From Thermoleophilia bacterium (GTDB lineage Bacteria > Actinomycetota > Thermoleophilia > BMS3ABIN01): a DNA stretch of 44,508 nucleotides. The notes under the pieces were generated by a model. The model saw nothing but the letters and a program-made list of their open reading frames with translations, did not search any database and was not told where the DNA came from. The position numbers and the translations under genes were made by a program. The DNA lies in contig JACWAM010000099.1 in NCBI GenBank assembly GCA_014874265.1, positions 1-44,508 of the forward strand. The letters run 5' to 3'. Of this stretch, positions 28,320 through 32,213 are shown in pieces; position 1 is the stretch's first letter, and each line of letters opens with the position of its first letter.

Positions 28320-28799
28320 TTACTTCGACGCCGCCTCTGGCTTCCGGTTCTCCGGATCGGGATCTTTTCGGAGCAATATTGTCACCGGGCCGTCACCTAC
28401 AAGTTCCACCTGCATCCGCGCGCCAAACACGCCGGTCCTGACCTCGAGGCCATCGCTTTTTAGCGCGGCGGCGACATCCAGATAAAGTTTTTCGGCCACG
28501 GGCGGCGACGCGGCGCCGGTGAAGCTGGGCCGGTTTCCCCGGCGCGTGTCCGCCAGCAGGGTAAACTGGCTGACGAGTAGCACCGAGCCACCGGCCTCCT
28601 TGACGGAAAGATTCATCCGCCCGCTGCCGTCGTCGAAGATACGCAGGCGCGAGATCCTGGCGGCGATATAATGGGCCTCGGCGCTGCCATCTTTGCTGGC
28701 AACGCCGAGCAGCACCAGCAGCCCGGGACCAATCGAAGCCACCTGACCGCCGTCCACCTGGACGCTTGCCTTCTTAACTCTTTGCAAAACGGCTTGCAT
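28320..28799 (-). CDS. dtd: D-aminoacyl-tRNA deacylase
   Basis: A 159-residue enzyme that removes wrongly attached D-amino acids from tRNA. It opens MQAVLQRVKKASVQVDG, and has the two active-site signatures SVLLVSQFTLLADTRRGNRPSF and the cross-subunit Gly-cisPro-type loop (here VRTGVFGARMQVELVGDGPVT). The C terminus has a short Lys/Glu extension. The family is usually about 145-150 residues. A 6-base inverted repeat (CTATTT ... AAATAG, 28808-28829) lies in the divergent promoter region. Confidence 0.95.
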   Translation of the reverse strand: MQAVLQRVKKASVQVDGGQVASIGPGLLVLLGVASKDGSAEAHYIAARISRLRIFDDGSGRMNLSVKEAGGSVLLVSQFTLLADTRRGNRPSFTGAASPPVAEKLYLDVAAALKSDGLEVRTGVFGARMQVELVGDGPVTILLRKDPDPENRKPEAASK

Positions 28800-28862: not shown

Positions 28863-29477
28863 ATGATCATGAAAATGAGTCAGATTCTTTGCTGGCCGGC
28901 AGTGCTGCTTCTGCTTGCGTTAGTTTCCGGATGCGGCCAGACAGAGCCTGGCGCATCGCTTAAATTGGGACGGCTTGGCAGCCTGCCGGCGGGAGCGGCC
29001 GGCAGGGCCTCATTTTCGCGGCTGGATCTGGAAAAATACGCGGCGCGATATGCCTCCACTCTGGCGGAATGCCGGCGGATCGGCCAGATCGAAATCCCCA
29101 GAATCGGGCTGCTGTTCTGGATTGCCCAGGGCACCTCGAAGCAATCGATGACGGTGGGGGCCGGTCATATCGACGGAACCCCCCTGCCGGGCGCCGGAGG
29201 CAATTTTGCCGTCGCCGGCGACCGGGTGCTTTACGGCGCTCCGTTTCTGAAGCTTGACCAGCTGCGCGCCGGCGACAAAGTCATCTTGCGGATGCCGTAT
29301 GCTGACCTGACCTACCAGGTGGATGACGTTACGAAAGTGTCGCCCGATGACGTCAGCGTGCTTAATCCCCGCGGTTATGACTCGATCACCTTAAGCACCT
29401 GCGATCCGGTCTGGCAGGTCGACCAGAGAATAATCGTCTCGGGAAAATTGATTAACATTGAGGTGAAACCGTGGTAG
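28863..29477 (+). CDS. Sortase-like lipoprotein with the catalytic His replaced by Asp
   Basis: A 204-residue protein with a lipoprotein signal (VLLLLALVSGC, lipid Cys24), so it should be anchored outside. Residues ~75-200 match a class D/E sortase barrel: IEIPRIGL, GAGHIDGTPLPG, GNFAVAGDRVLYGAPF, LSTC (Cys180) and QRIIVSGKL (Arg189). In sortases the third motif reads GHR with the catalytic His; here it is GDR (codon GAC, Asp120). His102 is present but belongs to another conserved motif. Sortase activity is therefore doubtful. Its end overlaps the start of the next gene. Confidence 0.8.
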   Translation: MIMKMSQILCWPAVLLLLALVSGCGQTEPGASLKLGRLGSLPAGAAGRASFSRLDLEKYAARYASTLAECRRIGQIEIPRIGLLFWIAQGTSKQSMTVGAGHIDGTPLPGAGGNFAVAGDRVLYGAPFLKLDQLRAGDKVILRMPYADLTYQVDDVTKVSPDDVSVLNPRGYDSITLSTCDPVWQVDQRIIVSGKLINIEVKPW

Positions 29478-30913
29478 ATTCTGCCGGCAGTCTGAAAGGA
29501 TCGCCATCGCTGCGCCGCGCCGGGCTTTACCTCCTTTTTGCGGCCCTGCTCCTGGGAACGCTGCTCCGCGGCGGCTACTTTCCGGTTCCCAAATGGACTT
29601 TTGCGCTGCTGCTTCTGCTTGCCGGAGCTGCGGAAGTGGCGGTGGTGGCCGCTTATAAGGAGCTGATCCTGCCGCGGGTGCCGTCGTTCTGGCTGCTCGC
29701 GGCCTTTTCGGCGTTTGCGGCCATAAGCGGCGCATGGAGCGCGGCGCCGGGCGAAACTCTCCGGGAATCGGTGCTGCTCTTCGGGCTGCTGGCGGCCGGA
29801 TATACTGTCTTAAGCCAGCTCAACTTCCGATGGACCGAGACGGTTGACCTAATTGCCGCGGGAGTGGTTTATACCACCGCCTTTGCATCAGCTTGGGGAA
29901 TCGCCTCTTTCATCATCAGAATGCAGCCTTACAGCGGTTACGTGGACGGTTTTCTCCGGGCAGGCTCGACTTTCGAGTACTCAAATGCCCTCAGCTGCTT
30001 CGGGCTGATGGGGCTGCCGGTCACGTTTGCCATGCTCAAGCGCTCCTTGCCGCGGGACCGGCCGCTTTTCGGGCTGGCCCTGGGACTGGAGACGGCTGCG
30101 GTATTGCTGAGCTACGCCAGATTTGGTTACGTGATTCTGTTCCTCTTGAGCCTGTATTTCATGGTAACCGCGGCAAAGCTGCGGGTGGCAGTTTTTGTGT
30201 CTCTGGCCGCGGGCATTGCGGCCGCCGCGGCCGCCGCGGCCGCGGAAGAAAGTTCGCTGCCCACATTCGGCTTTTTTGCCGTGGTGGCGATTTTCGGCTG
30301 CGCCTGGGTGCTTCAGCCGTTGCTGGCGGCGCGGTCGGAACGGGACGGCCGCTGGCGGGAGCGTCTGGCGGGAGGGGCGGCGGCGGTGGCGGTAGTGATC
30401 GGCGCGCCGCTACTAATTCTCAAGACCGGCCGGCTTCGACAGATCGTCACTTCCCGGTTCGGCCAGGGAATGAAGCTTAGCCATCTTTTGCCGCATCGGC
30501 TGGGCACCTACCGCGGCGCCCTCGACGCTTTTCGGATTCATCCCCTGGCCGGTTTTGGCCTGGGTTCCTTTGCCGGCGTTTACCAGCGCTACGCCATTGC
30601 CTCCTACACTGAGTTTGCCCATAACCTGGTGTTGCAGACCGCCGTTGACACGGGGATCATCGGCGCCACGCTGATGAGCGCCTGGCTCGCCCTGGCGGTG
30701 GCGCTCTCGATCTGGCGGCTGGCAGCGCGAACCGAGCCGCTGGCGCGGGCGTTCGCGATCTCATCTCTCGTCTTTATTGCCTACAACATGTTTGATTGGG
30801 AATGGTACGTGCCGGCTCTGGCCGGCTGGTTCGTGGTCGCGCTGATGGTGGTGGTGGCACCGGGTACCGGCAGCGAAATAAATCACCCTCCTAAAACTGG
30901 CGCGGCATTATAA
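29471..30913 (+). CDS. O-antigen ligase / Wzy-like membrane protein
   Basis: A 480-residue protein with 10-12 predicted membrane helices. The extracellular loop carries HRLGTYRGALDAFRIHPLAGFGLGSF, then YTEFAHNLVLQTAVDTGIIG, the usual Wzy_C features of O-antigen ligases and polymerases (WaaL, TuaE, Wzy). It would join or polymerise glycan repeats outside the membrane. The GTG start at 29471 overlaps the preceding stop, implying coupled translation with the sortase-like lipoprotein. An Ala-rich stretch lies near residue 240. Confidence 0.85.
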   Translation: MVDSAGSLKGSPSLRRAGLYLLFAALLLGTLLRGGYFPVPKWTFALLLLLAGAAEVAVVAAYKELILPRVPSFWLLAAFSAFAAISGAWSAAPGETLRESVLLFGLLAAGYTVLSQLNFRWTETVDLIAAGVVYTTAFASAWGIASFIIRMQPYSGYVDGFLRAGSTFEYSNALSCFGLMGLPVTFAMLKRSLPRDRPLFGLALGLETAAVLLSYARFGYVILFLLSLYFMVTAAKLRVAVFVSLAAGIAAAAAAAAAEESSLPTFGFFAVVAIFGCAWVLQPLLAARSERDGRWRERLAGGAAAVAVVIGAPLLILKTGRLRQIVTSRFGQGMKLSHLLPHRLGTYRGALDAFRIHPLAGFGLGSFAGVYQRYAIASYTEFAHNLVLQTAVDTGIIGATLMSAWLALAVALSIWRLAARTEPLARAFAISSLVFIAYNMFDWEWYVPALAGWFVVALMVVVAPGTGSEINHPPKTGAAL

Positions 30914-31226: not shown

Positions 31227-32063
31227 TTAGCGGGTAAGCACGTCGGCGGCCAGAAAGGCGAAGTAGACGATGCCGATAAACCCGTTCATCGTCATGAACG
31301 TCCCCACGCGCGACAGGTTGTTTTTCGTCACCAGCGCGTTTTCAAAGACAAGAAGGGCGGCGGCCACGGCGACGCCGGCAAAGTACAGGAGACCGCGCCC
31401 CTGGACCCATCCCGCGGCGGCGATCAGCGCCACGGCGAGCACGTGAAAGACGCGCATCACCATCAGCGCCGGTCCCACTCCCAGCGAAACAGGCAGGGAG
31501 TGGATACCCTCCGCCCGGTCGAAATCAAGATCAAGACAGGCGTAAGCGATGTCGAAGCCGCCAATCCAGAAGGTAATCGCACCCATTAGCAGGAATGGTT
31601 TCCACGTTAACCCACCTGTGACGGCAACCCAGGCGCCTGCCGGCGCCAGCCCGTCGGTTGCCCCCAGAAAGACATGGCACAGGGACGTGAACCGCTTCGT
31701 ATAGGGATAGATAACAAACGCGGCGATCACGATCGGGGACAGGTACCAGGTCAGAGGTGGCAGTTGCGACAGCGCCGCGCCCAGCACTGCCAGCGACAGC
31801 AGGGTGAAACCGGCCGCGGCCCCCAGCGACAGCTCCCCGGCCGCCAGCTCCCGCCCGGCCGTGCGCGGGTTGCGGGCGTCGATGCGGCGGTCGATGATTC
31901 GGTTGAGCGACATTGCCAGGCTGCGCGCCGCCAACATCGCCACCGTAATCCACAGAATCGTCAGCGCCGGCGGGATGCTGTTCCGGGCCAGGAGGGCTCC
32001 CGCGTAGGCAAACGGCAGCGCAAAGACACTGTGCTCCACCTTGACGAATTTTGCCAAAAGCAC
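31227..32063 (-). CDS. mqnP: UbiA-family prenyltransferase (MqnP-like, menaquinone)
   Basis: A 278-residue membrane protein with about eight helices. It has VEHSVFALPFAYAGALLA near the start, the first Asp-rich motif NRIIDRRIDARNPRT (NxxxDxxxD), and the second in IAYACLDLDFDRAEGIHSLP. UbiA enzymes attach a polyprenyl chain to an aromatic acid. The UbiD-family gene directly upstream in the same operon points to the futalosine route of menaquinone synthesis. The frame continues to a GTG at 32165, but those 34 codons cross a palindromic repeat; the GTG at 32063 gives a family-like N terminus. Confidence 0.85.
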   Translation of the reverse strand: MLLAKFVKVEHSVFALPFAYAGALLARNSIPPALTILWITVAMLAARSLAMSLNRIIDRRIDARNPRTAGRELAAGELSLGAAAGFTLLSLAVLGAALSQLPPLTWYLSPIVIAAFVIYPYTKRFTSLCHVFLGATDGLAPAGAWVAVTGGLTWKPFLLMGAITFWIGGFDIAYACLDLDFDRAEGIHSLPVSLGVGPALMVMRVFHVLAVALIAAAGWVQGRGLLYFAGVAVAAALLVFENALVTKNNLSRVGTFMTMNGFIGIVYFAFLAADVLTR

Positions 32064-32103
32064 CGGCAGCCGGATTAAAGTTGGGGTTTCGCTTTTTGCA
32101 GAT

Positions 32104-32158
32104 ATGTCTATTCCAAATCGAGAATCTTCCCGGCTAAAACGGTCCGGGATGACATTTA
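32104..32158. repeat. Palindromic element of the GGATGACA family
   Basis: Contains GAATCTTCCCGG and ends GGTCCGGGATGACAT, resembling the ends of the elements at 27.1 and 34.4 kb. It lies at the UbiA/UbiD junction. Confidence 0.4.
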
Positions 32159-32213
32159 ACGGCACGCATTTGTCGTCCTAATGATGCAGCCTGAAGGATC
32201 TCGCGGCAATGTA

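Follow-up and report, generated by a model that had tools for sequence, protein, structure and literature searches.

The sortase gene and its neighbours

The window, the whole 44,508-nucleotide stretch of DNA analysed here, carries on its forward strand (28863-29477) an open reading frame of 204 amino acids that encodes a lipoprotein-type sortase with GDR in place of the GHR motif, one of the group called type c below. Residues 76-196 matched the sortase domain PF04203 with 102.4 bits (E = 1.8e-29, cut-off 26.6), and the protein also matched TIGR01076 with 80.8 bits against a cut-off of 39.35. An earlier note on this DNA had proposed that the catalytic His was changed to Asp while the catalytic Cys and Arg remained, and that a lipoprotein signal stood in place of a transmembrane anchor; the assembly agreed with each of these points. 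Codon 120 (29220-29222), at the catalytic His position within the motif AGDRVLYGAPF, reads GAC and not CAC. The nucleophile Cys180 (TGC, 29400-29402) lies within TLSTC and is followed by Asp181 (the two residues span 29400-29405), and the catalytic Arg189 is encoded by AGA at 29427-29429. A lipobox-like site, VSGC, was read from the sequence at 28923-28934 and ends at Cys24 (28932-28934). The protein belongs to the sortase superfamily by its domain and fold, with the catalytic Cys in TLxTC and a later Arg, and fails a single defining feature, the catalytic His of the Cys-His-Arg triad.

The sortase gene is followed on the same strand by a gene for an O-antigen-ligase-like (Wzy_C) membrane protein (29471-30913; PF04932, 39.4 bits, cut-off 31.7), for which a GTG start is called at 29471, so that it shares 7 bases with the end of the sortase gene. 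The pair is flanked by two genes on the reverse strand that are conserved in synteny: a divergent dtd-like gene upstream (28320-28799; PF02580) and a UbiA-family gene downstream (31227-32165; PF01040).

Distribution of the aspartate

Searching the 19 genomes of the window's family with PF04203 recovered 31 sortases, and Asp occupied the catalytic His position in all 31, encoded by either GAC or GAT. Both Cys and Arg were retained in 30 of the 31, down to 34% identity with the window sortase. The same search found no His-type sortase in these 19 genomes; since the assemblies are 69-100% complete, a single genome could still hold one unseen. GHR pattern matches in two family genomes (L209 and L210) were not sortases. 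The occurrence of the same Asp in every family sortase across 19 genomes argues that it is more than chance, and contradicts the possibility raised beforehand that close homologues all carry GHR.

The window protein was also searched against 60 related genomes and gave matches in 48. Every match outside the family was taken as a control, the motif playing no part in the choice, and all 34 of these sortases from other families of the class Thermoleophilia carried His, Cys and Arg together. The window's family is known here from metagenome assemblies, so that a sequencing or assembly error might be suspected behind Asp120; that all 19 genomes have this Asp, and with differing codons, rules such an error out for practical purposes, and we regard its probability as negligible.

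Pattern searches extended the survey. The pattern GDRxxYxxPF matched 13 of 396 genomes of the phylum, 7 of them of the family, and a looser Asp pattern matched 47 of 299 genomes of the class, 19 of them of the family; when the matches in all 6 and all 28 non-family genomes were read in context, none of them proved to be a sortase. A scan with two peptides, NFx[VIL]AGDRVL and TL[ISL]TCDP[PIV]W, covering 84,980 species at one genome each, returned 33 stretches, of which 24 were confirmed, representing 23 loci; peptides of this kind detect Asp sortases with the same surroundings and miss those with others, and Asp sortases of other phyla would escape the pattern searches. By record, the 23 loci came from 21 metagenome-assembled genomes (MAGs), one uncultured MAG assembly and one entry named Bacterium BMS3Abin01, and the groups named for them were Thermoleophilia, Actinobacteria, Actinomycetes and Gaiellales. 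In GTDB the lineage probably corresponds to the group BMS3ABIN01. In the open literature, which leaves most subscription journals outside the search, no title or abstract described a natural His-to-Asp sortase, and no paper on Thermoleophilia and sortase was found.

Three paralogue types

A tree was built without the Asp column from 31 Asp and 28 His proteins, 11 of the latter coming from the window-protein search and 17 chosen by the GHR pattern. Two of 61 aligned rows had been dropped, L220 as a frame without the motifs and L223 as having no Cys segment in the alignment, and the Cys-less family protein L043 was kept. The Asp proteins fell on one side of a branch (96/94). The same side also holds L222, a His row lacking Cys whose branch is long (2.32) and whose placement is unsure. 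L222 (1044-2537) is a GHR sortase homologue from the wider class, in which Ser aligns with the catalytic Cys, and L043 (7616-8305, contig 16 of genome G013) has AADR and Thr for the catalytic Cys and is likely a dead sortase.

Three types were distinguished among the Asp proteins. Type c comprises 10 proteins including the window's and forms one group (100/96), as do the 6 proteins of type b (100/100); the 14 proteins of type a, among them a second sortase of the window's own genome (contig 11), do not form one group. A lipobox-like GC site was present in 8 of the other 9 type c proteins, in some of them imperfect (LPGC, TGGC, LWGC), the exception being a shortened copy in genome G005. Types a and b are membrane-anchored and have no ligase neighbour. 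The Asp is thus not peculiar to a lipoprotein next to a ligase-like gene but extends to two membrane-anchored types without that neighbour.

Changes coupled to the aspartate

The 30 Asp sortases with Cys (the Cys-less L043 being left out of these counts) were compared with the 34 class relatives. Seven positions marked the Asp sortases, D120, V122, L123, L129, T176, D181 and W184, and the same residues occurred in the relatives 0, 0, 0, 1, 2, 0 and 0 times, respectively. Residue 181, beside the Cys, was Asp in 30 of 30 Asp sortases and in none of the 34 relatives, 21 of which had His there. Trp184 (29412-29414, forward strand) was likewise specific to the Asp sortases (30/30 versus 0/34), and Arg189 was common to both sets (30/30 and 34/34). 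Residue 103 was Ile, Leu or Met in all 30 (Ile103 in the window sortase); among the relatives it was Tyr in 18 and Trp in 9. The Asp exchange therefore goes with further changes around the active site and involves more than one residue.

Only one His is invariant across the aligned Asp sortases: His102, within the GxGH motif (29166-29168, forward strand), present in 30 of 30 and replaced in 7 of the 34 His-type relatives. This pattern would fit a takeover of the acid/base role by His102, with Asp120 orienting either His102 or the Arg. The same residue also occurs in the other 27 relatives, however, so its conservation may be inherited, and the SrtE1 residue that corresponds to it by the alignment register closes strand beta3, next to the Tyr proposed to contact P3, and PMC5148588 names another residue as the catalytic His. 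We consider such a takeover rather improbable.

Fold and relation to sortase classes

An AlphaFold2 model of the window protein, computed with 22 relatives, had a mean pLDDT of 79.9, with 107 of 204 residues at or above 90, and contained eight strands in a sortase fold. Its weak parts were residues 23-47 and two loops, one following Asp120 and one preceding Arg189, the mean pLDDT being 68 for the block 121-130 and 74 for the block 181-190. Asp120 lies two residues past strand beta4 (114-118) in the model, and the catalytic His251 of SrtE1 directly follows beta4 (PMC5148588). The best solved fold match was SrtE1 (5cuw), with Z 19.0 and 2.2 angstrom over 135 residues; other structures within 1 Z of it, some of them of classes A and D, count as ties.

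Class E sortases (SrtE1 of Streptomyces coelicolor, SrtE of S. avermitilis and of Thermobifida fusca) share the GxGH motif, and class E was the top NCBIfam class model for the window sortase, at 105.9 bits. The class E cut-off of NF033747, 160 bits, was reached neither by this protein nor by type a (131.3 bits) or type b (111.4 bits), and the one GHR relative that was tested also fell below it with 112.3 bits. Class E has a conserved Tyr in the beta3/beta4 loop, for which contact with P3 and recognition of the Ala in LAxTG have been proposed (PMC5148588); the window sortase has Ile103 at this position. The Asp sortases differ from class E in having Asp for the catalytic His and Ile, Leu or Met for the Tyr, and the window copy also in being lipoprotein-like. 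In the family genomes the search was for LPxTG/MPxTG signals, and these they carry. The window sortase is thus nearest to class E, yet under its cut-off and without its Tyr.

Among class C/D sortases (pilin sortases and SrtD of C. perfringens) were the closest sequence relative in the PDB (3o0p, E = 1.6e-18) and the first Foldseek row for the window model (4d70); in contrast to them, the window sortase has Asp for His, and it scored 87.5 and 67.2 bits with the class C and D NCBIfam models, below their cut-offs of 160 and 165 bits. The same His-to-Asp change has been made in the laboratory: PDB 2wts is, by its database entry, an engineered H131D variant of SrtC-1 of S. pneumoniae. No paper on H131D was found in the open literature search. 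As far as that entry tells, 2wts carries a single engineered change, whereas the Asp sortases are a natural lineage with coupled changes.

Candidate substrates

A sorting-signal model was built from 17 signals of 13 family genomes, the remaining 6 of the 19 providing no seed. It matched all 19 genomes, each genome's best match having an E value of 6.4e-5 or better, and the loci of all 19 showed genuine protein ends that combine an intact [LM]PxTG pentapeptide with a hydrophobic segment and a basic tail. Of the 12 class genomes in which the window sortase had no match, 9 were tested with this model and none gave a hit at E <= 0.01; of the 29 with a match, 17, all with a His sortase, were tested and 6 gave one. 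The signals in His-sortase genomes count against the reading of an active Asp lineage put forward below. The window's genome has at least two sorting-signal proteins, with LPNTG and LPSTG, on contigs 75 and 52. A C-terminal sorting-signal scan of the window and 43 neighbourhood loci (some contigs being covered twice) found no LPxTG gene in the window itself.

Genes for LPNTG or LPKTG proteins adjoin the type b Asp sortase in 4 of 6 type b genomes (G010, G015, G016 and G018), and no LPxTG gene was found next door at the other two type b loci (G006 and G009). Genes of about 480-520 amino acids precede type b Asp sortases; one of them (L248, 6383-7951) encodes sigma-70 regions 2 and 4 together with a zinc finger (zf-HC2), and genes of similar size occur in L249, L250 and L251. 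The arrangement suggests a sigma factor, sortase and LPxTG protein module at type b loci. Separately, on contig 117 of genome G008 (L094, 1-1578, and L254), three neighbouring genes encode small MPxTG proteins, and the sole sortase found in that genome was of type c.

With no His-type sortase recovered from these genomes, the candidates to process their LPxTG proteins are the Asp sortases, and this coexistence is the main argument for the predicted activity of the Asp sortases. The Ile, Leu or Met at residue 103 is in line with recognition of LPxTG rather than LAxTG.

Selection and the question of lost activity

Close pairs of types a and c were compared by dN/dS, which was 0.02-0.19 in 6 of 7 pairs. 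In the seventh pair, the window sortase and the G005 copy, dN/dS was 0.63 over 132 codons (19 non-synonymous and 10 synonymous changes), and selection on the window's own pair therefore looks weak. Of 12 changes that could be assigned to one of the two, 9 fell on the G005 copy and 3 on the window copy, 6 further changes being left unassigned. In the sister species of G005, type c is apparently decaying; the window copy has changed less, although the numbers are small. The G005 copy (L045, 7960-8403) is fast-changing and has lost the signal peptide, lipobox and linker; the adjoining ligase is 91% identical to the window's.

These data bear on whether the proteins might be pseudo-sortases that bind sorting signals or partners without catalysis, with LPxTG-tailed proteins staying in the membrane. 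Loss of the His strongly cuts the activity of S. aureus SrtA, where H120Q is described as lowering activity dramatically (PMC4827206, in a passage citing other work), one paralogue (L043) has lost its Cys, and the type c copy of G005 is shortened and little constrained. Against this stand the retention of Cys and Arg in 30 of 31 proteins and in three paralogue types, the intact LPxTG pentapeptides in all 19 genomes and the low dN/dS in 6 of 7 pairs. With LPxTG proteins present and no His-type sortase found in these genomes, the non-enzymatic role that the earlier note had entertained appears unlikely for the group as a whole.

The ligase-like neighbour

The ligase-like gene directly follows the sortase in 10 of 10 type c genomes, with an overlap or a gap of about 10 bases at most at loci where both starts are clear. 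A close ligase homologue occurs in all 19 family genomes, partial in G006 and split in two in G011. In the 9 genomes without type c, the ligase-like gene has no sortase ahead of it and retains the dtd flank in 6 and the UbiA flank in 7 (some stretches end nearby). The ligase does not need the type c sortase, because it stands without one in 9 of 19 genomes, and an obligate partnership of the two is ruled out.

As to the suggested role in glycan attachment, the adjacency held throughout type c, but the ligase also occurs without the sortase. The two might act together in linking proteins to glycans, a proposal that has weak support. A related proposal is that the Asp brought a changed reaction, the protein acting as a hydrolase or transferring the acyl group to an acceptor other than a peptide, for instance a lipid-linked glycan handled by the ligase partner. 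The tight succession of the two genes and the lipoprotein-type signal on type c would suit such a reaction, but in the other 9 genomes no sortase precedes the ligase, and the Asp is also found in types a and b, which lack the neighbour; we hold this proposal to be very doubtful.

A probable lineage of active Cys-Asp-Arg sortases

The data are best explained by a lineage of active Cys-Asp-Arg sortases that probably anchors LPxTG proteins, with the window copy as one of three paralogue types, a reading to which we assign a probability of about 0.6. With slightly better than even confidence, we further propose that the whole lineage swapped His for Asp in one ancestral event, rebuilt its active site and still anchors LPxTG proteins, and would thus be a natural class of Cys-Asp-Arg transpeptidases. 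The Asp-type sortase would have taken the place of the His-type enzyme in the family's ancestor.

The putative mechanism draws on conservation, context and fold. Cys180 would attack the Thr-Gly bond of the LPxTG/MPxTG sorting signal, while Arg189 would hold the substrate and the oxyanion. Asp120 would serve as the proton carrier, taking the thiol proton, giving it to the leaving amine and taking one from the incoming amine, and its surroundings (V122, L123, W184 and D181) may raise its pKa enough for proton transfer. The window copy, presumably lipidated, would act from a lipid anchor on a substrate that we infer to be of the same kind.

Several points count against an active lineage. Two Asp residues near the Cys should hinder formation of the thiolate. 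The dramatic loss of activity in H120Q of S. aureus SrtA and the lack of an LPxTG gene in the window point the same way. One paralogue (L043) has lost its Cys, the type c copy of G005 has decayed, and the window-G005 pair shows the high dN/dS given above.

The Cys-His-Arg triad has been treated as a hallmark of sortases, and the Asp lineage opens a direct test of whether the His is needed. Motif rules that demand the His could call a working sortase family dead. The Asp sortases could also supply protein ligation with enzymes of a different pH or acceptor range.
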